Shown one piece after another: positions 13,841 through 25,802 of a stretch of 35,989 nucleotides of DNA; position 1 is the stretch's first letter; the number at the start of each line of letters is the position of its first letter. The notes below the pieces were generated by a model. That model was not told the DNA's origin and ran no database searches. It worked only from the letters and a program-made list of their open reading frames with translations. The DNA comes from Halanaerobiaceae bacterium (GTDB taxonomy: Bacteria > Bacillota > Halanaerobiia > Halanaerobiales > Halarsenatibacteraceae): positions 1-35,989 of the forward strand of contig PWEJ01000015.1 of NCBI GenBank assembly GCA_003553485.1, written 5' to 3'. A program made the position numbers and the translations under genes.

Positions 13841-14599
13841 TCACTGTAGATTATCCAGGGAAAAAATATCGACAGAGAAATCATGGGAAAAATCCAGTTT
13901 ATTTAACTTGAAAACTGTTCGACTATTTTCCCGCAGCTGATCCTCCATAATTATTTTCATGGGGTACCAGCGCCCATCAGCCTGCTCTTCTATTTTTCTG
14001 GCAGTCATGATTTTCAAAAGTTGCCCATTACGAGCATATAGTTCTTCTTGCAGGGCTATAAAACGCTCGCTGTCTATCCAGATTTTTCTTTTAGCATAAG
14101 CCCCTTCTTCTCCCTCTTTGAGCTGGCCTTTCAGTAGATAAACTGGTCTCTCAGCTAACATCTCTTCTCCTAAGAGAGTAAACTCATAAATATCAGAGAG
14201 CCTATCAGACTCCATCATATCCTGATAGGAGAAATCACTACCCATCATGCTCTGATTAAGCATATGACCGGAGATTCTTACCAGGTCTTCTGCTGCAGGA
14301 AAAAACATCCAGAGTTCATCATCTATTAACAGATATTTGGTTCCCCGGTCTTGAGGATTGGTAAACTCCACCAGAGCCTTATCTCCTTGAATATATGAAA
14401 GCATCTTTTTTTCCATGACCCTTCTATCTTCAATAATTAAGCTGGCTTCCATATAGGCACTTTCAATATATTCATTGTCATCTCGATAGTTAATAATTTC
14501 TTCTGCTGTCAGAGCCTGAATTCTTGTAGTGGCTACAGTGCTTATTGCTAAAACAAGGACTATCAATAGAACAATTGAAACTTTGCTAATTTTTTTCAT
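13841..14599 (-). CDS. LolA-like outer-membrane lipoprotein-sorting protein
   Basis: Exported protein of 252 residues with a Sec signal (VSIVLLIVLVLAISTVATTRIQA) and no lipobox. The mature part has the half-barrel strand pattern of the 'outer membrane lipoprotein-sorting protein' family: RVMEKKMLSYIQGDKALVEFTNPQDRGTKYLLIDDELWMFFPAAEDLVRISGHMLNQSMMGSDFSYQDMM, where the NP-DRGTKYL and GSDFSY(E/Q)D motifs are characteristic. It is last in an operon with an ABC ATPase and two FtsX-type permeases, the arrangement expected of a Lol-like system that carries a lipid or lipoprotein across the periplasm. AAAGGAGGAAGG precedes the ATG. Confidence 0.87.
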   Translation of the reverse strand: MKKISKVSIVLLIVLVLAISTVATTRIQALTAEEIINYRDDNEYIESAYMEASLIIEDRRVMEKKMLSYIQGDKALVEFTNPQDRGTKYLLIDDELWMFFPAAEDLVRISGHMLNQSMMGSDFSYQDMMESDRLSDIYEFTLLGEEMLAERPVYLLKGQLKEGEEGAYAKRKIWIDSERFIALQEELYARNGQLLKIMTARKIEEQADGRWYPMKIIMEDQLRENSRTVFKLNKLDFSHDFSVDIFSLDNLQ

Positions 14600-14637
14600 G
14601 CTGTCCTTCCTCCTTTGATCATTAAAAAGCTGTTAAT

Positions 14638-15903
14638 TTAAGAATCATGATGCAGCGCTGTTACTGGATCAAGCCTGGCTGCTGAGCGGGCTGGCCATAA
14701 ACAGGTAATGGTTACCACTGTTGCTCCCAGGATAAAACTAACTAGCAGATTTTCCAGGTTAAAGACCGGATAAAAAGCAGGTTCCACCAAAACATCCATA
14801 CCTGAGATAGTGTCAGCATAAGCCTGAACATGCAGGCCAGCTCGGGAAAGATATAAATTAATTAATCCACCACTCAGTACTCCAAAGGCACTTCCTATAA
14901 TTCCCATTAGAGCTCCTTCTACCGTGAATATTTTTAAGATATCACGAGGTTTTAATCCCAGTGCTGACATCATACCGATCTCTGTAATTCTCTCCCGGAT
15001 TATCATTTTTAAGGTGCTAATTACAGCAATGGTCCCCATCAGTATAATAGCAATATAGATAAAGTCAAAGATGCTCTCCATTTCAAGAAAGAGCTCCAGA
15101 ATAGGATCGGTTCTCTGCCAGGCCAGAGCGGAGTAATTGTCAGTTCCATCTCTCTCCTGAAATAGTATAGCCAGGCTCTCTTCCAGTTCTTCAGCTCTAT
15201 CCCTACTGGTTGAGAAAACCATTATTTCAGTAGCCTGATCTTCCATTCCCAGCATGCTCTGAACAGTAGTCAAGGGGAGATAGAAAAAATTATCATCGAA
15301 TTCTGAGAAGCCACTTTCCCTCACCCCGACGATGGTAAAAGTTCTTCCCTGTAGAGATTGATAGTAGTTGGTAAACATGAAAGTTACTTGATCACCAATA
15401 TCAGCCTTTAGTTTATCCAGCAATCCGACCCCAACTAGAATTTCATTTCCCTCCTCTGGCATTCTACCCCTGTTAATCTCCTCTAGCAATAATCCATGAC
15501 GTTTTTCTGCAACTGGATCAATACCAAATCCAGCCATCCTAACCATCTCATTAGCCTGCCCCCCATAAAGAGCGCCGAATTTCAAACGAGGTACAATATA
15601 TTCCGTTTCTTCTAGCTCTTTAATCTCCAGTAACATATTTTCCAGACCAGCACCTTGAAAACCATCAATTCCATAATCCAGGGAAAGCAGAGCTTCTCGG
15701 TTACGATATTCTGACTGTATTATTCGGGCATGACCTAAATTATTATCAATATAAAGATCATAGGTGTTATCGCTAAAGCCCAGTATTAGCCCCCGACTGA
15801 ATACCACGATGGCAACAACCGTGGTGATAGCTAAAATGGCAATGACCGTCCTCACTTTGTTGCGATTTAAATTTCTCCAGGCAATTTTAAATAAATCTTT
15901 CAT
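14638..15903 (-). CDS. FtsX/LolE-type ABC transporter permease (second)
   Basis: Inner-membrane permease, 421 residues from ATG 15903, which has a perfect AAAGGAGGATTAAA site; the frame is open 87 bp further upstream but without a ribosome binding site. It has one N-terminal helix (VRTVIAILAITTVVAIVVFSRGL), a MacB-like periplasmic domain of ~220 residues, and three C-terminal helices with the FtsX signature ERITEIGMMSALGLKPRDILKIF. Likely partner of the permease encoded just upstream and the ATPase at 17263-18012, forming a LolCDE-type complex that extracts lipid-anchored cargo from the inner membrane. Confidence 0.88.
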   Translation of the reverse strand: MKDLFKIAWRNLNRNKVRTVIAILAITTVVAIVVFSRGLILGFSDNTYDLYIDNNLGHARIIQSEYRNREALLSLDYGIDGFQGAGLENMLLEIKELEETEYIVPRLKFGALYGGQANEMVRMAGFGIDPVAEKRHGLLLEEINRGRMPEEGNEILVGVGLLDKLKADIGDQVTFMFTNYYQSLQGRTFTIVGVRESGFSEFDDNFFYLPLTTVQSMLGMEDQATEIMVFSTSRDRAEELEESLAILFQERDGTDNYSALAWQRTDPILELFLEMESIFDFIYIAIILMGTIAVISTLKMIIRERITEIGMMSALGLKPRDILKIFTVEGALMGIIGSAFGVLSGGLINLYLSRAGLHVQAYADTISGMDVLVEPAFYPVFNLENLLVSFILGATVVTITCLWPARSAARLDPVTALHHDS

Positions 15904-16010
15904 TTTAATCCTCCTTTTGAGCCTTATCTCTCTTTTAATTCGACTTAAATCTATAAAAATCCCAAAGTTCTTCTTGACTATTTCCTCCACTGGTTTTAAG
16001 ATATAAATAT

Positions 16011-17258
16011 CTAACGATGATAAATAGCATCTACTGGATCTTTTCTAGCTGCCCAATAAGAGGGAATTAAGCTAGAGATTAGGGCTACTGTTACAGCCAA
16101 AGTAAAAAAGATAATAAAAGACTGCGGCTTCCAGACCCCGTAAATAGTACCCAAAATCGGAATTCCCAACTCCAAAGTGATATCACCATAGAGCAACTGG
16201 AGATCAAAGCCAATGTTTACCAATAAATAGGTTCCGACTGCGCCCAGACCGGCACCAATAAGACCTCCAATTACACCCAGGCCACTGGCTTCTATAGAAA
16301 AGATCTTGACTATCTGCTTTTCACTAAGGCCCATAGCTTTCATCATCCCAATTTCTTCAACTCTTTCCAGGGATGACAGTACCACGACATTAATTATCCC
16401 TATAGCTCCCACCAGCAGAATTAAAGCTACGATGAAATAAGTCTCCAGCTGACCCCAAACCTCCATAGCTACTAGCATATCAGAAACATCTCTCCAGGAA
16501 TTTACCTGAAAGTCTTTTGCTAGAGACCCCGTTAATTGTTTTTCCAGGCTCTCAGACCTGGCAACAGCAGAATGCCTATCGGTCATTTTCACTTTAAGCT
16601 GGTTAATCTCTGAACTGCTAACTCCCAGGGCTGAGGCTGCAAAACTCTGATCAATTATTACCGTTCCCAGATTCATACCAGGCTCTGGAGTGGCGGCAAT
16701 ACCAAGAATCTCACCCTGGATTGTATTCAGCGAACCGCCTTCTTCGCGAAATAGTAAAGTATAGAAGTCTCCTACCTGCAGGTCTAAAATTTCAGCTAAA
16801 TTCATGCCGATTACCAGACCAGAATCACCGGCTTGTAAGAAATCACCTTCAATCAGATAGTCCTGGTATCTAAAAACCTCCTTAAAACTTGCAGGAGCGG
16901 CTGCTCTAACTCTGACTGGATATTCTTCCCTGCCAGCCAGCATATTAGCAGAAAAGTCCAGCACCGGAGTAGTAGCAACGAAACCCGGAAGTTTCTCGAT
17001 TTCTGTCAACACCTCTTCAGTGGGAGTAAAAAGGTGGTCTAAAGGATCCTCATTATCAGCAAATAACTCCGGACGGGCAATCTGGAGATGAGCTGAATCA
17101 AAGTCAATAATATTACTAAAGGACATTTCCATCATACCGGCCATGAAAGTCTCCAGTATTATGGCAAAGAAAATAGCGAAGGCTAACACTCCAGCAATAA
17201 TCAGTGTTCGACCACTACGGCGAAATAAGTTTCTTAGGGCAATTTTACTTAAATACAT
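16011..17258 (-). CDS. FtsX/LolC-type ABC transporter permease (first)
   Basis: Inner-membrane permease of 415 residues, paralogous to the next gene in the operon. N-terminal helix LIIAGVLAFAIFFAIILETFM, MacB-like periplasmic domain (~50-270), then three helices with the FtsX motif ERVEEIGMMKAMGLSEKQIVKIFSIEA. It ends in the charged segment YWAARKDPVDAIYHR typical of LolC/E-type permeases. AAAGGAGGTAAAACC precedes the ATG, four bases after the ATPase stop codon, so the two are translated together. Confidence 0.9.
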   Translation of the reverse strand: MYLSKIALRNLFRRSGRTLIIAGVLAFAIFFAIILETFMAGMMEMSFSNIIDFDSAHLQIARPELFADNEDPLDHLFTPTEEVLTEIEKLPGFVATTPVLDFSANMLAGREEYPVRVRAAAPASFKEVFRYQDYLIEGDFLQAGDSGLVIGMNLAEILDLQVGDFYTLLFREEGGSLNTIQGEILGIAATPEPGMNLGTVIIDQSFAASALGVSSSEINQLKVKMTDRHSAVARSESLEKQLTGSLAKDFQVNSWRDVSDMLVAMEVWGQLETYFIVALILLVGAIGIINVVVLSSLERVEEIGMMKAMGLSEKQIVKIFSIEASGLGVIGGLIGAGLGAVGTYLLVNIGFDLQLLYGDITLELGIPILGTIYGVWKPQSFIIFFTLAVTVALISSLIPSYWAARKDPVDAIYHR

Positions 17259-17262
17259 GGTT

Positions 17263-18012
17263 TTACCTCCTTTCTTCCCTGGTTATTTTACCGTCTCTGA
17301 TCTCCAGCAGTCGACCTGCATACTCCATTACCATGGGGTCATGAGTGGAGAAAATAAAGGTGGTTTTGAGTTTACTATTCATCTCCAGCATAATTTCCAG
17401 AACTTCTTTGCTGGTCTTAGAATCAAGATTAGCAGTCGGTTCATCGGCCAGCACCAATCTTGGTTCCTTTACCAGAGCCCTGGCTATAGCTACTCGCTGT
17501 TTTTGACCACCAGATAGCTCATTGGGCCTTCTATCCAGCATATCTCCCAGACCAACCTGCTCCAGAATTTGAGCTGATCTTTCTTTACTATTCCTGACCG
17601 GGTTCCCGTTATTACTGCTTGAGATTTTCAAAGCAAATTCAACATTCTCATAAGCTGTCAATACTGGTATTAGGTTATAACTTTGAAAGACAAAACCAAT
17701 GTTGTCTCTTCTCAGCAGAGCCAGTCCATTTCTATCAAGTTCATTGATTATTGAACCATTGATCTTAACCTGGCCTTCGCTGGGTTTATCCAGAGCTCCT
17801 ATTAGATTGAGTAAGGTTGTTTTTCCTGAGCCTGAAGGCCCGTAGACAGTAGTGAATTCCCCTTCAGCAATTTTCAAGTCTATCCCTCTAAGTGCCCTGA
17901 CGGAAATCTTTCCATCCTCATAAGTTTTTTTGACTGAATCTAAACTGACTAAGACTGAATTTTCTAGCTTCTGATTGATTTTCTTCTCGGAATTTAAACT
18001 GACTACTAACAT
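17263..18012 (-). CDS. LolD/MacB-type ABC transporter ATP-binding protein
   Basis: Cytoplasmic ATPase of 249 residues. Walker A GPSGSGKTT, Q-loop FVFQSYNLIPVLTAYENVE (typical of the LolD/MacB/FtsE group), signature LSGGQKQRVAIARAL, Walker B LVLADEPTANLD and H-loop FSTHDP are all present. First gene of the operon ATPase-permease-permease-LolA-like; AAAGGAGGAATTATTCC precedes the ATG. The N-terminus carries ~20 extra residues before the ABC core. It powers the two FtsX-type permeases; cargo is inferred to be lipoprotein or lipid. Confidence 0.92.
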   Translation of the reverse strand: MLVVSLNSEKKINQKLENSVLVSLDSVKKTYEDGKISVRALRGIDLKIAEGEFTTVYGPSGSGKTTLLNLIGALDKPSEGQVKINGSIINELDRNGLALLRRDNIGFVFQSYNLIPVLTAYENVEFALKISSSNNGNPVRNSKERSAQILEQVGLGDMLDRRPNELSGGQKQRVAIARALVKEPRLVLADEPTANLDSKTSKEVLEIMLEMNSKLKTTFIFSTHDPMVMEYAGRLLEIRDGKITREERR

Positions 18013-18316
18013 GGAATAATTCCTCCTTTTAGAATTTTATCTTAATGATAGGTTAATTTTATCTCAGTAGATGGAAGTTTTGACCTGACAAATGTTAGGT
18101 TTCTGCTTGTTTGACTGTTGGTTTTTTTCCAGTTGCAATTTGCTAAAAATATGAAAGAGAAAAATATCAAAATTAGAGGATTTAAGAATTAAATGTCTAA
18201 TTATAGATTAAAAGACCTTAATTTTATTATCTTTTTTGCTAACTTAAGCAATGTTGGCTATAGATAATTTTTCCACTCTGTATCCAGCTCTCTGCTTTAA
18301 GAGAAAGGAACTTATT
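18013..18316. other. divergent intergenic region, no confident promoter
   Basis: About 304 bp between the divergent ATPase and symporter genes. It is AT-rich, with TAAAAT boxes on the minus strand near 18030 and 18045, but no properly spaced -35 element, inverted repeat or small gene could be supported on either strand. Confidence 0.4.
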
Positions 18317-20296
18317 ATGAGTGCTGAACAGCTTTTCCTGTTATTTGTACTTGCCTTCAGTGTCCTGCTTATTTTCGCAGGTTTATTAACTCGCCGCTGG
18401 ATCAGAGATTCCTCAGATTTTATTCTTGCTGGCCGAGAAATAAGTCTAATACTAAATATCTTTGGTGTGGCTGCCATCGGTTTCGCTGGCACCAGCATCG
18501 CTTTAGGTCCTGCCTTCACCCTGCAATACGGTTTCTGGACTTCTTTTATTGCAATGGGGGTTGTCTTCGCCCTTGGAGGGCTAGGTCTTTATGGAATATT
18601 TTTTACCAACTTTATCCGCAACTGCGGTGCTCAGACTTTACCAGAATGGCTGGAAATGCGATTTGATAGCAGAGTTAGATTGATAGTTACTATTGGTACT
18701 ATCTTAGGCTTAGCTGGAATAATGGCCAACAATGTAGTTTCAATGGCTGGAGTTGTTACCGGTTTTACTGGCTGGTCACAGTTTGTTACTGTTTCAGCTA
18801 TCTTCTTTCTTTTTATGTTCTTCTCTTATCTCGGCGGATTCTGGGCCATAACTCTCACAGATTTTCTACAGATCTCGCTGGGGTTGGTAGCTATTCCTCT
18901 ACTGGTTTACGCCTTTTTTGCTAATTATGGCGATATCAGCTGGCTGGAGGCTAACTGGACTGGAGAAGCCGGCTTCCTGCAGTCCGGATTAACTGGAGAA
19001 ACTATGCCCATATTTAGCCTGCAATACCCCAGTCTGCTAACTTTCATCTTCATCTTTGCTATTTTCTTGGTCTGGGGCAACAATTACTACTGGCTGAGAG
19101 CCGCTTCCTGTCGTAGTGCCAGATCTGCCCGCCTCTCTTTTTTCTGGGCCAGTATTCTCCTCTGTTTATTTTTTTATTTACCGCTCTGTGCGGTAGGTCT
19201 TTTTGCAGGAGCTGCAAATCCTGAACTTTTTAAACCTTTAGGGCAGATTGCCCCTACTGCTGCCTATGGGGTCTTCCTGCAGGAACTGCCAGTTTTTTTG
19301 GCTTCTTTTTTATTATTAACTCCTTTAGCCGCCGGGGTCTCAACCTCCACCACTGCTCACATTGGAGCCAGTTCCGTGGCTGTCCGTGATATTTATCAAA
19401 AACATTTTAAACCCAAAGCCAGTTCTCAGGAACTACTACTGCCTTCCCGAGTTATTCTTCTAATTTTAGGTCTACTGGTCTGGCTCTTGAATTTTTATCC
19501 CGGCGGTCCTGTTTATCTCTTTGCCTTTGCTACAGCCTGGCTGGGACCCCCTTCACTACTTGTTTTTTTAGGAATTGTTTGGAGAAAATTTTCCGCTACA
19601 GCAGCTTTCTGGTCAGCTATACTCAGCATGGCAACTATGTTCTTTTTGACCCTGCTGGAATTACTTGATATCTTTCTTATTTCTAATTACATGCATGTAG
19701 GTATCGCTGGTTATATTACTGCCCTTATTCCAGCTTTTATAATAAGTTATTTGACGCCCTCCCCCTATTTTGGTAGATCCAACTGGACGAGAGTGCCGGA
19801 AAAGTCAAATCGAGAAGAAATTGTTTTAGCTAAAAGAGATTATAAAATTCTAACTTTGATAAATGTGGATTATAATAATATGGCTGAACTCTCCGACCTT
19901 TTAGGACTGGATACCGGCCTTTTAAACCACCATATTGAAAAGCTTGACCGCGGAGGTTTAATTATACGCGATGCTTTAAAGGGGGCTAAATTTTACAACT
20001 TCAAAGTCAGCCCAAAAGGAAAAGTTAAACTGCCAAATTTTAATGCTGCAGAAGAAAAACTTCTCCAGGATAATTTAGACCAGGAAAGCCTTAAAATACT
20101 TAGCATAGCTGCTACTAATCCCGGATTTTTAAGGAAGTTGGTCAGCCAGGGAAAATATTCCTCTCTTAAGCTTTCAGTTATTCTGGCTAAACTAATCCGG
20201 CAGGAATATCTGGCTGAGGGAGGGCTTTGGCGAAGAACAATTACAATAACTACTGCAGGACAAAGGATACTGGAAAAGCATCAGCAGCTTTTGTGA
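18317..20296 (+). CDS. sodium:solute symporter with two C-terminal winged-helix-like domains
   Basis: Polytopic transporter of the SSS family (659 residues from ATG 18317; AAAGGAAC upstream). Residues ~1-480 hold about 13 membrane helices with family features such as DFILAGREISL, the small-residue-rich GVAAIGFAGTSIALGPAF, and AQTLPEWLEMRFDSRVR. The last ~160 residues are soluble and contain two apparent winged-helix segments. The first is KILTLINVDYNNMAELSDLLG and LLNHHIEKLDRGGLIIRDA (~509-570). The second is LKILSIAATNPGFLRKL, then VILAKLIRQEYLAEGG and ITITTAGQRIL (~590-655). Such a fusion suggests substrate flux is linked to DNA or protein binding. The next gene, 82 bp downstream, is a LuxR-type regulator. 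Transported solute unknown. Confidence 0.85.
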   Translation: MSAEQLFLLFVLAFSVLLIFAGLLTRRWIRDSSDFILAGREISLILNIFGVAAIGFAGTSIALGPAFTLQYGFWTSFIAMGVVFALGGLGLYGIFFTNFIRNCGAQTLPEWLEMRFDSRVRLIVTIGTILGLAGIMANNVVSMAGVVTGFTGWSQFVTVSAIFFLFMFFSYLGGFWAITLTDFLQISLGLVAIPLLVYAFFANYGDISWLEANWTGEAGFLQSGLTGETMPIFSLQYPSLLTFIFIFAIFLVWGNNYYWLRAASCRSARSARLSFFWASILLCLFFYLPLCAVGLFAGAANPELFKPLGQIAPTAAYGVFLQELPVFLASFLLLTPLAAGVSTSTTAHIGASSVAVRDIYQKHFKPKASSQELLLPSRVILLILGLLVWLLNFYPGGPVYLFAFATAWLGPPSLLVFLGIVWRKFSATAAFWSAILSMATMFFLTLLELLDIFLISNYMHVGIAGYITALIPAFIISYLTPSPYFGRSNWTRVPEKSNREEIVLAKRDYKILTLINVDYNNMAELSDLLGLDTGLLNHHIEKLDRGGLIIRDALKGAKFYNFKVSPKGKVKLPNFNAAEEKLLQDNLDQESLKILSIAATNPGFLRKLVSQGKYSSLKLSVILAKLIRQEYLAEGGLWRRTITITTAGQRILEKHQQLL

Positions 20297-20378: not shown

Positions 20379-23123
20379 ATGAAAAACCAAATTTTAGAGG
20401 AAAAATTAAATCCTCCAGTGATTTTTGAACCAATTAGAAAAGAAAATTTTTTTCGGGAGGTGACCCGGGCTCTTGAGATAGAAGGAGGTTTCTACCGGAA
20501 ATTAACCCTGATTACAGCCCCGGCAGGTTACGGTAAAACAACCATGTTAGTTGATTTTTTCAACTCTTTAAAACAGAAAAAATGCTGGTTAACCCTATCA
20601 GCTGAAGATAACCTCATCGATAGACTGACAACTCATCTTTTGGCTGCTGTTGCCAAAATATTTACAACTGATGATAAGCTAAAAACAAAAAAGTTTCTCC
20701 AGAACCCCGGCAGTTTTTCTGAAGAAGCAGAAGAAGATAGTAGCAAACAGATTATCAGCGAACTTCTCAGGGAGATTTCTGTCAAAGATATTTACCTGTA
20801 TCTTTTCCTCGATGAACTGGAGCAGATCAAATCTTCCCCCTCACTTGACCTTTTACAGTTCTTTTTAGAGAACCTACCAACTAATATGCATGTAATTGCT
20901 GCCAGCCGAGAAGAACCAGATTGGCCTTTGATCCAGTGGACCGCCCGGGGCAAAGCTAAAATTATCGGGCAGGAAGAATTGAAATTTAACTCTTCTGAAG
21001 TAGAGGATTTTATGAAACGGAATAAAATTTCAGTTTCTCCGGAAGAGGCGGTATCTTTAGCTCGGGTTACTGAGGGCTGGGTAACTGGACTGCAGCTGAT
21101 TTCACTGCTGCCAGACTTTTCTTTAGATAAGTTTACCAGTGACAGTTTTTCAGGTTCAAAGAAAAAAATTATGGACTTCTTGCTGGAAGAAGTACTGGCT
21201 CAACAGGAAGTTAAAATCCGGAAATTTTTGCTGCAAACTGCACCTCTATCTCGATTCAATGCTGCTCTTTGCGGAGCAGTAACTGACTTTGACAAAGTCA
21301 GTGAACTTCTCGATTTAATCCATAAAAAACAGCTTTTTCTCAAGATGATAGATAGCGAAGGTAATTGGTATCGCTATCACCAACTATTCTCTGCTGCTCT
21401 AAGCAGCCGGCTGGAGGCTGAAAATCCAGCCTTGAAGAAAGATATTCACAAATTGGCTGCCCAGTGGTATTATGAACAAGGACTTTTCAAGGAGGCAGTA
21501 GAAGAAGCATTAAATGGAGAAGAATATGATTGGGCTGCTAATCTCATTTTTAAGAAAAGTGGCCAATTTATGAGACAGGGATTGAGAGCCAGCATGATGT
21601 CCTGGCTGGATGAATTTCCCCGGGATACCTTAAGTCAACAACCTGGTTTACAAGTTTTGCAGGCTATTTTGGAGCTTTTTAAGGGGCATTTGTTGACTGC
21701 TGAGAACAAACTAAAACAGGTCCAGGTTGAGAAAGATAAGGGGGCTTTTAAAGAACTCAAAAAAGAGGATAGAGTATTCCTCACAGGAATGATTGCCGTT
21801 GGATTTTTAGTGCTAACTGTTTTTCAGGGACAAAGAACTGAAATTGCCAGGTATACTAAAGAAGCTCTGGAAAAACTAACCCCCGATAATTACTGGCGCC
21901 AAATTGCCATGATCTATCATGCTGATGATCAACTTTTTTCTGGAGATCTTACTGGAGCTCTGCAGAGCTACCAGATGGCCAGATTCAATGAGGGCCCTGA
22001 GAATTACGGCTTTTTTGTTCAGCTAGCCGGTTTGAAAGAAGCCTGGCAACTCTGGTGGATGGGGCGATTGGATGAGGCTGCTGCTCTCTGTGATAGCCTG
22101 CTTGAGCAGGCAGAGGGCACCGGTTTTTCTTATACTCCTCGAGCTGGGACTATCAGGGCAATAAGGGGTGATCTCTATTGTGAAGGAAATGAACTTGATA
22201 AGGGGCGGGAGTTGATTGAAGCTGCTCTTAAAATCAACCAGGGAGGAAGAGAAGTTATCGGTCAACTACTAGTTGGTATGTATCAACTAAGGTATTTATT
22301 TTCAAGCAGGAAGTTTGACCAGGCCCGTGAATCATTGGATCGGTTGCAAATTTTAAGCCAGGAAGAGTCCTTTGAACTGGTCATTGATAATCTCACCGGT
22401 TGGAAAGTTAGGTTCTGGTTGGAGCCAGAGTTTCCTGACCATCAGGATTGGATTAGAGCAGTAAATCTGCTGGCTTCCCGGGGAATTAAACCGGAAAAAA
22501 AGCCGGGTTTTGCTCAAGAGATGGAGTATCTAGCACTTAGTAGGGCCTTTATCTGTGGTGGAAGGTTTCAAGAAGCAGAAGAAATCATTCATTTCATTCT
22601 CAATCTCTCTCATCAAAATCAGGTTAGTCGTCGAGAACTAGAAAGCAGGCTTTTGTTAGTCCAGCTCAGAGAAAAACAGCAACAGAGAACAGAGGCCTTA
22701 AAACAACTTCGACAGGCTATTGATCTAGCTCGAAAAAAGGGTTTCTTACGCTCAATTCTTGATGAAGGGGAACCGATAACAAAGCTATTACCAGAGCTAT
22801 TGCCAGATAAAGACCGGCAGTATTATATTAATAGATTATTAAGATCAACTAACAAAACAGAAAAATATGATACAGGATCAGGTAATGATAAAGCTAAAGA
22901 GAATAAAAATAAACAGCAAAAGTTAATTGAACCTTTAAGTCAGCGAGAGCTGGAAATATTAGCTGAAATAGCTGCCGGCCTGGCCAATAAACAAATAGCT
23001 GAACGGTTAAATATTGCCAACGGTACAGTGAGGTGGCATACCAGCAATATATACGGCAAATTAGGAGTTGACAGTCGAACTCAAGCAGTGACCCGGGCTC
23101 GAGAAATTGGGCTACTGGATTAG
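20379..23123 (+). CDS. LuxR-family transcriptional regulator, MalT/LAL type
   Basis: Large ATP-binding regulator of the LAL family, 914 residues from ATG 20379 (AGGAG eight bases upstream; the in-frame TTG 36 bp earlier lacks a site). The N-terminal STAND-type ATPase domain has Walker A TAPAGYGKTT (~46-55) and Walker B YLFLDELEQI (~148). A winged-helix-like region and about ten TPR-like helical repeats follow (~350-800). The C-terminal LuxR helix-turn-helix is complete: LSQRELEILAEIAAG, NKQIAERLNIANGTVRWHTSNIYGKLGVDSR. Family members bind an inducer and ATP and then activate promoters; adjacency suggests control of the upstream symporter. Its last 12 bp overlap the convergent otsB gene. Confidence 0.92.
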   Translation: MKNQILEEKLNPPVIFEPIRKENFFREVTRALEIEGGFYRKLTLITAPAGYGKTTMLVDFFNSLKQKKCWLTLSAEDNLIDRLTTHLLAAVAKIFTTDDKLKTKKFLQNPGSFSEEAEEDSSKQIISELLREISVKDIYLYLFLDELEQIKSSPSLDLLQFFLENLPTNMHVIAASREEPDWPLIQWTARGKAKIIGQEELKFNSSEVEDFMKRNKISVSPEEAVSLARVTEGWVTGLQLISLLPDFSLDKFTSDSFSGSKKKIMDFLLEEVLAQQEVKIRKFLLQTAPLSRFNAALCGAVTDFDKVSELLDLIHKKQLFLKMIDSEGNWYRYHQLFSAALSSRLEAENPALKKDIHKLAAQWYYEQGLFKEAVEEALNGEEYDWAANLIFKKSGQFMRQGLRASMMSWLDEFPRDTLSQQPGLQVLQAILELFKGHLLTAENKLKQVQVEKDKGAFKELKKEDRVFLTGMIAVGFLVLTVFQGQRTEIARYTKEALEKLTPDNYWRQIAMIYHADDQLFSGDLTGALQSYQMARFNEGPENYGFFVQLAGLKEAWQLWWMGRLDEAAALCDSLLEQAEGTGFSYTPRAGTIRAIRGDLYCEGNELDKGRELIEAALKINQGGREVIGQLLVGMYQLRYLFSSRKFDQARESLDRLQILSQEESFELVIDNLTGWKVRFWLEPEFPDHQDWIRAVNLLASRGIKPEKKPGFAQEMEYLALSRAFICGGRFQEAEEIIHFILNLSHQNQVSRRELESRLLLVQLREKQQQRTEALKQLRQAIDLARKKGFLRSILDEGEPITKLLPELLPDKDRQYYINRLLRSTNKTEKYDTGSGNDKAKENKNKQQKLIEPLSQRELEILAEIAAGLANKQIAERLNIANGTVRWHTSNIYGKLGVDSRTQAVTRAREIGLLD

Positions 23124-24230
23124 AGTAAGAAAGCTTAAGAAGCTTTTAACTTCTTTAGGGTCGTGCAGGAAGTAATCTGCTTCAGTTGAAAGACTATTTT
23201 CGTTTTTTATATATACTGTAAAGCCAGGTCTGCTGAAATTAGCGAAAACATCTTCATCTGTAGTATCATCTCCTAGATAAATAGCTGGCTTAAAATCATT
23301 GCCTAACATTACATGAGAACGAATAAATGTTTTACCTTTGTTTCTAACTATATCTCTTCCCAGAGTGAACTCTTTTCTTAGCGAGTTTACTGCTTTACCT
23401 TTATCCCAGGCAGCAGGTCTAATCTCCATAACCTGACGACCAACAATAAGCTCCCAATTAGTGTTTTTCAGCATGTCTTTTAGTTGGCCCTCTAATGAGT
23501 CTGGAGAAAAACTTTTATTTTTAGATTTTTCCTTTGTTTCATCCCAGTGCAGGGCTAGTTGCAAGCCTTTATTTTCTAATTTAAGGTTTTTATTGCTCTT
23601 GGTGTTTTTTTTGAGTAATTTTTCAACCTCTGCTGGCAAGTCTTGCTTTGGCCTGGCCAAATAAACTCTCTCCTTTGAACCAGCAGGCAAATAAGCCAAA
23701 CCATGCAGGCCAGCTACAGCAATATTTTCCTTTGGTAAAAAGCCTCTTATCTCCTCTGGTTCTCGTCCGGTCACTATTACAACTTTAACTTTATTAAAAC
23801 TACTTAATTTAGCCAGCAGTTCTTTGCTTCCTGGTATAGGATATGCTTTCCCGGGGTCAGAATGGAAAGGAGCCAGTGTTCCATCATAATCAATAAAAAG
23901 ATGAAGTTCATCTTGTTTATTTTTGACTTCTGAGCTGCTAAGCCTGCTGTTAGATAGTTTGCTAGTTTTATGGCCCGGTGGGAACAGCTGATTATTTTTT
24001 GATCTGGTATATCTATATCTGGTTTTGTGGTTTTGTTTTGATTGAGGAAACTCTGGAGTGAAAAATTCAGCAAATAAACTTTTATATTTTAAAAAACTAG
24101 TATAGTTGAGAGCTTTTGAGCTTTTTAATAGGGTCACCATCTTTGTTTTAGGCAAAATTGAGCCAAGATAAGCTGGCCGATGATGCTTATCTTGGCTTAC
24201 AATTTTGTTGTTGAGTATATTCTTATCCAT
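23112..24230 (-). CDS. otsB: trehalose-6-phosphate phosphatase (OtsB-like) with a long N-terminal extension
   Basis: HAD-superfamily sugar phosphatase, 372 residues, expected to dephosphorylate the product of the adjacent synthase. Motif I is FIDYDGTLAPF (Asp114, Asp116), motif II IVTGR, then the OtsB motif EIRPAAWDKGKAV and motif IV YLGDDTTDEDVF. The enzyme core begins only near residue 108; the ~107-residue basic, Ser/Lys/Asn-rich, apparently disordered N-terminus is not normal for OtsB (usually about 240-270 residues). The start is nevertheless well supported: GGAGGAATTGTT then ATG, overlapping the otsA stop by 8 bp. The 3' end overlaps the convergent LuxR-type gene by 12 bp. Confidence 0.9.
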   Translation of the reverse strand: MDKNILNNKIVSQDKHHRPAYLGSILPKTKMVTLLKSSKALNYTSFLKYKSLFAEFFTPEFPQSKQNHKTRYRYTRSKNNQLFPPGHKTSKLSNSRLSSSEVKNKQDELHLFIDYDGTLAPFHSDPGKAYPIPGSKELLAKLSSFNKVKVVIVTGREPEEIRGFLPKENIAVAGLHGLAYLPAGSKERVYLARPKQDLPAEVEKLLKKNTKSNKNLKLENKGLQLALHWDETKEKSKNKSFSPDSLEGQLKDMLKNTNWELIVGRQVMEIRPAAWDKGKAVNSLRKEFTLGRDIVRNKGKTFIRSHVMLGNDFKPAIYLGDDTTDEDVFANFSRPGFTVYIKNENSLSTEADYFLHDPKEVKSFLSFLTLIQ

Positions 24231-25686
24231 AACAATTCCTCCATTCTTTGAGGAAAGTATCGCGCCACCAATCGAGATCTTGATTTTTAACCGCTTTAAT
24301 CATCCTGCTATAACGTTGTTTCTTTTCCTTTTCAGTCATCTCAATAATTTGGCGAATAGCTTCAGCTACCTGGTCAATATTATGAGGGTTTACCACTTCC
24401 GCTCCTGGCAATTGTTCTTTTACTCCAGCAAATTCTGATAAAATCAACTGTCCCTTTTCTCGACAGGCTAGATATTCTTTAGCTACCAGATTCAAACCAT
24501 CGACCAGAGGAGTGATGAGGGCAGAATCAGCCGCTAAATAATAAGGGATTAGTTTTTCTTGCGGCAGAGCCTGTTTAAAATAACGAATGGGTTCCCAGCC
24601 CCCAACATTATGACGCCCATTTATATCACCAATCGCCCGGTCGATTTTGCGCCTCATCTCTTTATATTCAGGTATATTTGTCCTGCTGGGACAAATTCTT
24701 TGTATCAAACTTACCTCTCCTCGATATTGAGGGTACTTTTCAAAAAGGCGATCAATTGCCTCCAGGCGAGATAAAATTCCTTTTGAATAATCAAGTCTAT
24801 CAATCCCAATAATTAGATGGTTAGCATTAAAATCTTGTCGAAGCTGCTTGGCCTGTTTCTTAAGTTCTTCCCGCTGTGCCGCTGAGGCAAAATAATCATA
24901 ATCAATACCTAAAGGATTGGAAATCACTTTAGTGGGCTGGCTATTTGGGTCCTGGGGTTTTACTATCTGTTCCTTTTTATCTACTTTAAAACCATTTTGA
25001 GCTGCAGTTTTTAGAAAATTTTCCACATAACTTTCGGTGTGAAAACCAATTAAGTCGTTGGCCAAGAGGCCATCTAAGAGCTTTTGACGCCAGGGGATGG
25101 TATTAAATATTTCATAGGGTGGCCAGGGTATATGCCAGAAAAGGGCCAGTTTAGCCTCTGGTTTCCTCTCCCTGATCATACCGGGCACCAGGCAAAGCTG
25201 ATAATCCTGGACCCAAATCCATTCATCACCTTCAATTTCTGCCAATGCTGATTCGGCATATTTTTCGTTCACCTGGCGATAACTTTTCCAGTTTTTACGG
25301 GAAAAGTTGGCCTTAGTAATGAAATTATGACAAATAGGCCAGAGAGTTCGATTGGAAAAACCATAATAAAAACCATCGACCTCTTCTTTGCTAAGTTTCA
25401 AACGTTTAAGTTGATAACCCTCTTGATCTGGCACCATAATGCTATTGTTGGCATCCACAACTTCAAAATCTGCTTCTTCCCGTCCCCAGGCCAGCCAGAG
25501 GTTACCCCTCTCCTGCATTAAAGGGTCGAGACCGGTGGTAAGACCTCCAGGCTGCTTTTCCTGAAAAATTTCTCCTGATTCTTTATTTTTAAATTTATGA
25601 GCATAGGGTTCATCATTAGAGATCATGACCAATCTTTCCTGGTGAGCCTGCTTATTTTGTTCATTCGAGGTTCTAAATTTTGTCAT
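24223..25686 (-). CDS. otsA: trehalose-6-phosphate synthase-like glycosyltransferase (GT20)
   Basis: Family 20 glycosyltransferase, 487 residues, expected to join a nucleotide-activated glucose to glucose-6-phosphate. Recognisable elements are PGGLTTGLDP, VQDYQLCLVPG (Asp kept, flanking His residues replaced by Gln), FWHIPWPPYEIF, IGIDRLDYSKGI (Arg and Lys donor ligands) and DGLNLVAKEYLA. The N-terminal loop reads ISNDEPY where relatives have SNR, so a conserved Arg that contacts the acceptor phosphate in E. coli OtsA is Asp here. A related activity such as glucosylglycerol-phosphate synthase is possible. ATG 25686 (GGAGG seven bases upstream) is preferred; another ATG directly precedes it. 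The product is probably a compatible solute. Confidence 0.88.
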   Translation of the reverse strand: MTKFRTSNEQNKQAHQERLVMISNDEPYAHKFKNKESGEIFQEKQPGGLTTGLDPLMQERGNLWLAWGREEADFEVVDANNSIMVPDQEGYQLKRLKLSKEEVDGFYYGFSNRTLWPICHNFITKANFSRKNWKSYRQVNEKYAESALAEIEGDEWIWVQDYQLCLVPGMIRERKPEAKLALFWHIPWPPYEIFNTIPWRQKLLDGLLANDLIGFHTESYVENFLKTAAQNGFKVDKKEQIVKPQDPNSQPTKVISNPLGIDYDYFASAAQREELKKQAKQLRQDFNANHLIIGIDRLDYSKGILSRLEAIDRLFEKYPQYRGEVSLIQRICPSRTNIPEYKEMRRKIDRAIGDINGRHNVGGWEPIRYFKQALPQEKLIPYYLAADSALITPLVDGLNLVAKEYLACREKGQLILSEFAGVKEQLPGAEVVNPHNIDQVAEAIRQIIEMTEKEKKQRYSRMIKAVKNQDLDWWRDTFLKEWRNCYG

Positions 25687-25802
25687 CATCTCACCTCCAA
25701 ATAAGAGACTAAGATTTATTCTATTAACAGGTAATTGACAGGGTGAAATTATTTTTAAGACTGACAGAAACTCTAGCAAACCAGCAATAAGTATTAGCAA
25801 AC

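Follow-up and report, generated by a model that had tools for sequence, protein, structure and literature searches.

To our knowledge, few bacterial transceptors are known. Among the proteins that serve transporters, FeoC has the winged-helix fold. It binds and protects the FeoB transporter and does not serve it as a transcription factor (PMC10710835). Idle MalFGK2 anchors the MalT regulator at the membrane (PMC10427625). Symporters of the SSS/SLC5 family (PutP, PanF, CHT1; PF00474, TC 2.A.21) with a regulatory C-terminus are already known, namely, the SLC5-STAC histidine-kinase transceptors (CbrA, CrbS, MxtR), and CbrA, whose STAC domain is docked beneath the SLC5 core, provides a structural precedent (PMC13022988). 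A review of SSS proteins in prokaryotes covers fusions to sensor-kinase domains but describes none to winged helices (PMC7918813), and our searches of the open-access literature for an SSS/winged-helix fusion found none, an absence that is weak evidence.

The window, that is, the whole stretch of 35,989 nucleotides from a Halanaerobiaceae bacterium that was analysed here, encodes a protein that resembles each of these systems in part (Table 1). It shares with the SSS/SLC5 symporters the PF00474 match, the 13-TM fold and S342/T343 near the sodium site but differs from them in having a tandem winged-helix tail and in falling below all NCBIfam equivalog cut-offs. Like the SLC5-STAC transceptors, it joins an SLC5 carrier to a conserved, putatively regulatory cytoplasmic C-terminus; unlike them, it ends in two winged helices, and a Pfam scan of the whole protein and of the tail found in the tail only winged-helix families and no STAC, PAS, HisKA or HATPase domain. 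Each tail domain has the fold of the MarR-family transcription factors, whereas the tail as a whole is a membrane-tethered tandem that lacks the D-x-R wing and in which domain 1 is acidic. As in the MalFGK2-MalT system, a transporter is genetically coupled to a MalT-like STAND-LuxR regulator; here, however, the carrier is secondary rather than ABC, and the putative contact domain would be the winged-helix tail rather than MalK. The likeness to FeoC, a small, separate and Fe-S linked protein, is one of role, a winged-helix domain serving a transporter.

The symporter and its C-terminal domains

The open reading frame at 18317-20296 (+) encodes a 659-residue SSS/SLC5 symporter. The coordinates and start given in the sequence-only reading are right: an AAGGA ribosome site lies just 5' of the ATG at 18317 and the corresponding Met is invariant in a 53-member alignment. 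A longer version starting at the ATG at 18251 was rejected, its extension being unaligned in homologues and without a ribosome site.

Table 1. Features of the symporter locus, in window coordinates
Feature	Position	Strand	Evidence
Divergent ABC-transporter ATPase, first gene of the MacB/FtsX exporter and LolA_like cluster	17263..18012	-	PF00005 2e-36; conserved in L003, L010
18-bp palindrome ACCTGACA-AA-TGTTAGGT, divergent intergenic region, candidate operator	18083..18100	.	conserved with L010
SSS/SLC5 membrane domain (residues 1-485), 13 predicted TM helices	18317..19771	+	PF00474, full-length model, CHT1
Juxtamembrane linker (residues 486-505)	19772..19831	+	secondary structure of full-length model
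First winged-helix domain (domain 1, residues 506-575); DNA-facing elements acidic	19832..20041	+	model pLDDT ~95; 2qww; charge test
Second winged-helix domain (domain 2, residues 576-659); basic, with a shortened wing	20042..20293	+	model; YusO 1s3j; charge test
MalT-like STAND ATPase-TPR-LuxR regulator, next gene	20379..23123	+	TPR_MalT 8e-39, GerE 8e-21

The SSF profile (PF00474) covers residues 35-436 with an E-value of 8e-28 (97.9 bits against a gathering score of 22.8). In the full-length AlphaFold2 model (pLDDT 88, pTM 0.87), the membrane part has the LeuT-type 13-TM SLC5 fold: residues 2-480 superpose best on the solved structure of the choline transporter CHT1 (8j74; Z 41.8), ahead of NIS (Z 36.2), SMCT1 (35.1) and SiaT (34.5). 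CHT1 spans the membrane with 13 TM helices and its C-terminus lies in the cytoplasm, and the symporter tail is therefore placed, by homology, on the cytoplasmic side of the membrane. Residues A338, S342 and T343 are invariant across the 53 homologues and belong to a stretch that we take to be the region holding the Na2 site in PutP and vSGLT; with the conserved S342/T343 in the expected region, sodium coupling is predicted. No NCBIfam substrate-level model reaches its cut-off (PanF, 58 against 328 bits; PutP, 50 against 515; VC_2705, 37 against 321), and the only NCBIfam models named are the general SSS ones; as the symporter falls below every equivalog cut-off, its substrate is left unassigned.

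The last ~155 residues make up a pair of winged helices of the MarR fold, as indicated by AlphaFold2 prediction combined with superposition; the fusion claimed in the sequence-only reading thus stands, and both fold prediction and profile searches of the tail (MarR_2, HTH_45, HTH_24) point the same way. The tail model (pLDDT 94.0, pTM 0.87) consists of two helix-helix-helix-strand-strand units, with, in tail-model numbering, helices 17-27, 33-40 and 44-56 and strands 60-62 and 72-75 in unit 1, and helices 100-111, 115-121 and 127-139 and strands 143-146 and 152-155 in unit 2. In VIA-align superpositions, tail-model residues 12-85 fit MarR protein 2qww (Z 11.5, rmsd 2.2, 71 aligned residues) and residues 85-170 fit YusO (1s3j; Z 10.7), with MepR and FabT at Z of about 10.2 and many further MarR-family chains scoring close below. 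The Foldseek E-values for the tail are weak (best 0.016), so the case for winged helices rests on the Z-scores, the profile matches and the model together. Taken alone, the tail encoded in the window passes the curated Pfam cut-off of the winged-helix family HTH_24 (23.5 against 21.9 bits), and in the homologue set of 53 tails, MarR_2 is matched by 47 (best 3.5e-10) and HTH_45 by 30 (best 7.4e-12). The K/T-rich wings initially described were not borne out: the wings are short, and K/T-richness is not a general feature of them. A STAC or histidine-kinase tail was also rejected, given the lack of any such Pfam match and the end of the protein at residue 659.

Distribution and genomic neighbourhoods of the family

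The genome collection was scanned with two peptide patterns, EWLEMRF and VWGNNYY, and because both lie in the membrane domain, the scan was blind to the tail. It recovered 66 loci from Bacillota, Spirochaetota and Binatota. The survey of these SSS proteins for similar tails found both winged-helix domains in every member whose frame is intact and not truncated at the edge of a contig, across all three phyla, with the conserved motifs present in both domains. Five further genomes of the phylum encode the full-length symporter with the tail; a search of 348 genomes of the phylum with the tail only returned the same five and no other architecture, and neither a stand-alone form nor a second copy of the tail was found in this genome or in those 348. 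In one of the five, the next-best SSS protein (2e-37) matches residues 6-439 only. Because tail and symporter co-occur one to one in three phyla despite differing neighbour regulators, the function of the tail appears to be tied to the transporter.

Across the membrane domain, the protein encoded in the window shares 85% identity with its nearest relative; across each of the two tail domains, it shares 65%. The dN/dS of the tail in close pairs is 0.02-0.54, below 1 throughout and generally higher than that of the membrane domain; the tail evolves under purifying selection. A chance fusion, a misassembly or a frame artefact was rejected on the basis of a 79%-identical syntenic homologue and of the relatives in three phyla. 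A viral origin was likewise rejected: of two pattern matches in viral contigs, neither encodes a relative, and the viral structure matches are generic HTH folds. The copy in Piscibacillus salipiscarius (L072 5001-6938) has a broken frame, open for 266 aa with homology extending to residue 652, through either sequencing error or pseudogene formation. Genomes of Binatota/Desulfurellaceae each encode two paralogues of symporter plus tail (L057/L067, L058/L065, L059/L062, L060/L063, L066/L070), one of which lies beside a histidyl-tRNA-synthetase-like gene (by eye), a context unlike that in the other phyla.

The gene next to the symporter was originally called MalT-type. Its resemblance to MalT and its pairing with the symporter within the clade are upheld, but its score against the MalT equivalog PRK04841 (352 bits) falls short of the cut-off of 537, and on these profile matches, it is MalT-like STAND-LuxR rather than MalT proper. 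The two genes are adjacent in the window, in L003/L010 and in Spirochaetaceae; the ~82-bp gap between them in the window contains no terminator-like site, and in all six intact Spirochaetaceae loci, they share a 4-bp stop/start overlap (ATGA or GTGA). A clade of nine, supported with an SH-aLRT of 99, includes the window as well as two cyclase-linked Bacillota, a relative from the Halanaerobiaceae and members of the Spirochaetaceae; in this clade, the MalT-like regulator lies 3' of the symporter in the Halanaerobiaceae and Spirochaetaceae members. Because the MalT linkage is limited to one clade, it cannot represent the ancestral role of the tail.

A LolA_like gene (PF17131) and an exporter adjoin the symporter/MalT-like pair in the window (13841-18012, minus strand) and in L020, L021 and L032, the exporter being a MacB/FtsX ABC system in the window and an RND-like protein in Spirochaetaceae (by eye). 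The recurrence of these genes in both groups suggests a shared envelope or hydrophobic-substrate function. Convergent with the MalT-like gene, the window contains, at 23112-25800 (-), genes for trehalose-6-phosphate synthase (Glyco_transf_20, 1e-129) and, judged by eye from a DYDGTLAP motif, for a probable trehalose phosphatase.

In most clades, the neighbours of the symporter are a PF04199 cyclase (38 loci), BKACE (27) and a thiolase (17), and the adjacent regulators are TrmB (10 loci) or sigma-54 activators (25; named by eye). Cyclase, BKACE, thiolase and CoA-transferase genes occupy positions -1 to +3 in L005-L054 and others, among them L054 on a contig from Eubacterium ramulus and L047 on one from Flavonifractor plautii. 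The cyclase/BKACE/thiolase set resembles a described phloroglucinol-degradation cluster, which includes a 'major family transporter' (PMC10470551). In the cyclase-linked loci, the symporter is accordingly placed, by gene context, as a candidate substrate importer. Phloroglucinol was rejected as an assigned substrate and stays a lead because the cyclase residues named for recognition (PMC10470551) seem unconserved by eye and the window lacks these neighbours.

Possible DNA or protein contacts and the candidate operator

The original proposal was that of a membrane-tethered DNA-binding transporter, against which a tail lacking a basic recognition surface would count. The part of it that stands is the double winged helix, cytoplasmic by homology; by sequence charge, the DNA-facing elements are acidic in domain 1 and basic in domain 2. 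We compared the DNA-facing segment (alpha2, alpha3 and wing) with that of 25 control MarR proteins encoded by related genomes within the same order. The mean net charge, calculated from sequence charges and not from surface electrostatics, is +1.76 in MarR, -1.60 in domain 1 (Mann-Whitney p 3e-10 against MarR) and +4.25 in domain 2. The D-x-R wing motif, a MarR hallmark although not one that every DNA-binding winged helix needs, is present in 25 of 25 MarR proteins and in none of the 53 copies of either domain. With its acidic DNA-facing elements and no D-x-R wing, domain 1 is unlikely to bind DNA; domain 2, being basic, may do so. The wing of domain 2 has four residues fewer, and at one site in its recognition helix, where 17 of the 25 MarR proteins have Ser, 45 of 53 copies have Leu or Met, which would fit a protein interface.

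The palindrome lies 217 bp upstream of the symporter gene. The form ACCTGACA-NN-TGTTAGGT is common to the window and L010 (4663-4680), where the intergenic region is otherwise diverged; the exact palindrome is single-copy in the genome, and a second copy with 2 mismatches, among IF2/rbfA/truB-like genes (by eye), looks unrelated. In Spirochaetaceae, ACCTGCCGAAAGTMAGGT is found upstream of the same symporter/MalT-like operon, with one-mismatch variants in two loci; loci with the palindrome include L034 (1397-1414) and, upstream of the symporter, L020 and L032. The consensus ACCTR-N8-YAGGT (also written ACCTG-N8-YAGGT) occurs upstream in MalT-linked loci only, and also at scattered places at a near-chance rate, so the cross-phylum match is best regarded as suggestive. 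Since the palindrome tracks the MalT-linked loci, the LuxR-type HTH of the MalT-like protein seems the likelier reader of this candidate operator.

We favour, with the case judged about evenly balanced, the reading that the tail is a cytoplasmic regulatory module acting via protein contacts, which gates the carrier and, in the clade of the window, holds the MalT-like factor. This reading is suggested by the acidic domain 1, the absence of D-x-R from all 53 tails, the Leu/Met in domain 2, the one-to-one association of tail and symporter, and the adjacency of the MalT-like gene; the charge of domain 2, which is more positive than in the MarR controls, counts against it. The tail would sense the conformational or occupancy state of the transporter, or a cytosolic ligand, and would gate the symporter through protein contacts. 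In the window clade, it may keep the MalT-like STAND regulator encoded next to it bound at the membrane while no substrate is being transported, a step that we infer from the gene coupling and the MalFGK2 precedent. On release, the regulator would act at the divergent promoter, with the conserved palindrome as its likely operator. In other clades, the tail could serve other partners or the transporter alone.

The principal competitor is a purely autoregulatory role, comparable to those of MetN C2, CBS or FeoC: the tail would sense a cytosolic substrate or product and inhibit transport, or shield the carrier from proteolysis, without any part in transcription. In favour of this role, the tail stays with the transporter irrespective of which regulator lies nearby, and accessory cytoplasmic domains commonly modulate transporters (PMC10710835), but this scheme leaves the MalT coupling in the window clade unexplained, and no pocket or ligand has been identified; we consider it possible, if doubtful. 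The protein could instead be a membrane-tethered one-component regulator, in which the tail, mainly domain 2 and perhaps dimerised, binds operator DNA near its own operon with an affinity altered by transport. The MarR fold of both domains, the strongly basic alpha2-alpha3-wing of domain 2 and the conserved palindrome upstream of the gene are all compatible with such a regulator, and yet the charge of domain 1 and the missing D-x-R wings weigh against it. The palindrome as the tail's own operator was rejected, being absent upstream of non-MalT members with the same tail, and so appears to follow the regulator and not the tail. Moreover, a separate dedicated regulator (TrmB, a sigma-54 activator or the MalT-like protein) is encoded at 38 of 70 loci, and with another regulator at about half of the loci, the tail is less necessary as the transcription factor of the operon. 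Direct DNA binding by the tail is therefore, in our estimate, unlikely. A tail that serves passively for dimerisation or as a scaffold, without any part in signalling, and in which the acidic domain 1 and the basic domain 2 could pair in trans, is hard to reconcile with the conservation of motifs in both domains across phyla, even though the rate of evolution is higher in the tail than in the membrane domain, and we regard it as very improbable.

Possible significance for transporter signalling

If the favoured reading, regulation via protein contacts, is correct, the novelty of this family would lie in an SSS transceptor with a winged-helix regulatory C-terminus, the mechanism being a proposal. 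It would represent a tractable second architecture in which a nutrient carrier bears a fixed cytoplasmic regulatory module. Besides this halophile, the family is present in cultured anaerobes such as Flavonifractor plautii, Eubacterium ramulus, Fusibacter and Tissierella, and its study would show whether a winged helix on a transporter can function in protein signalling rather than in DNA binding. If, on the other hand, the DNA-binding reading is true, a single polypeptide would couple solute flux to transcription.
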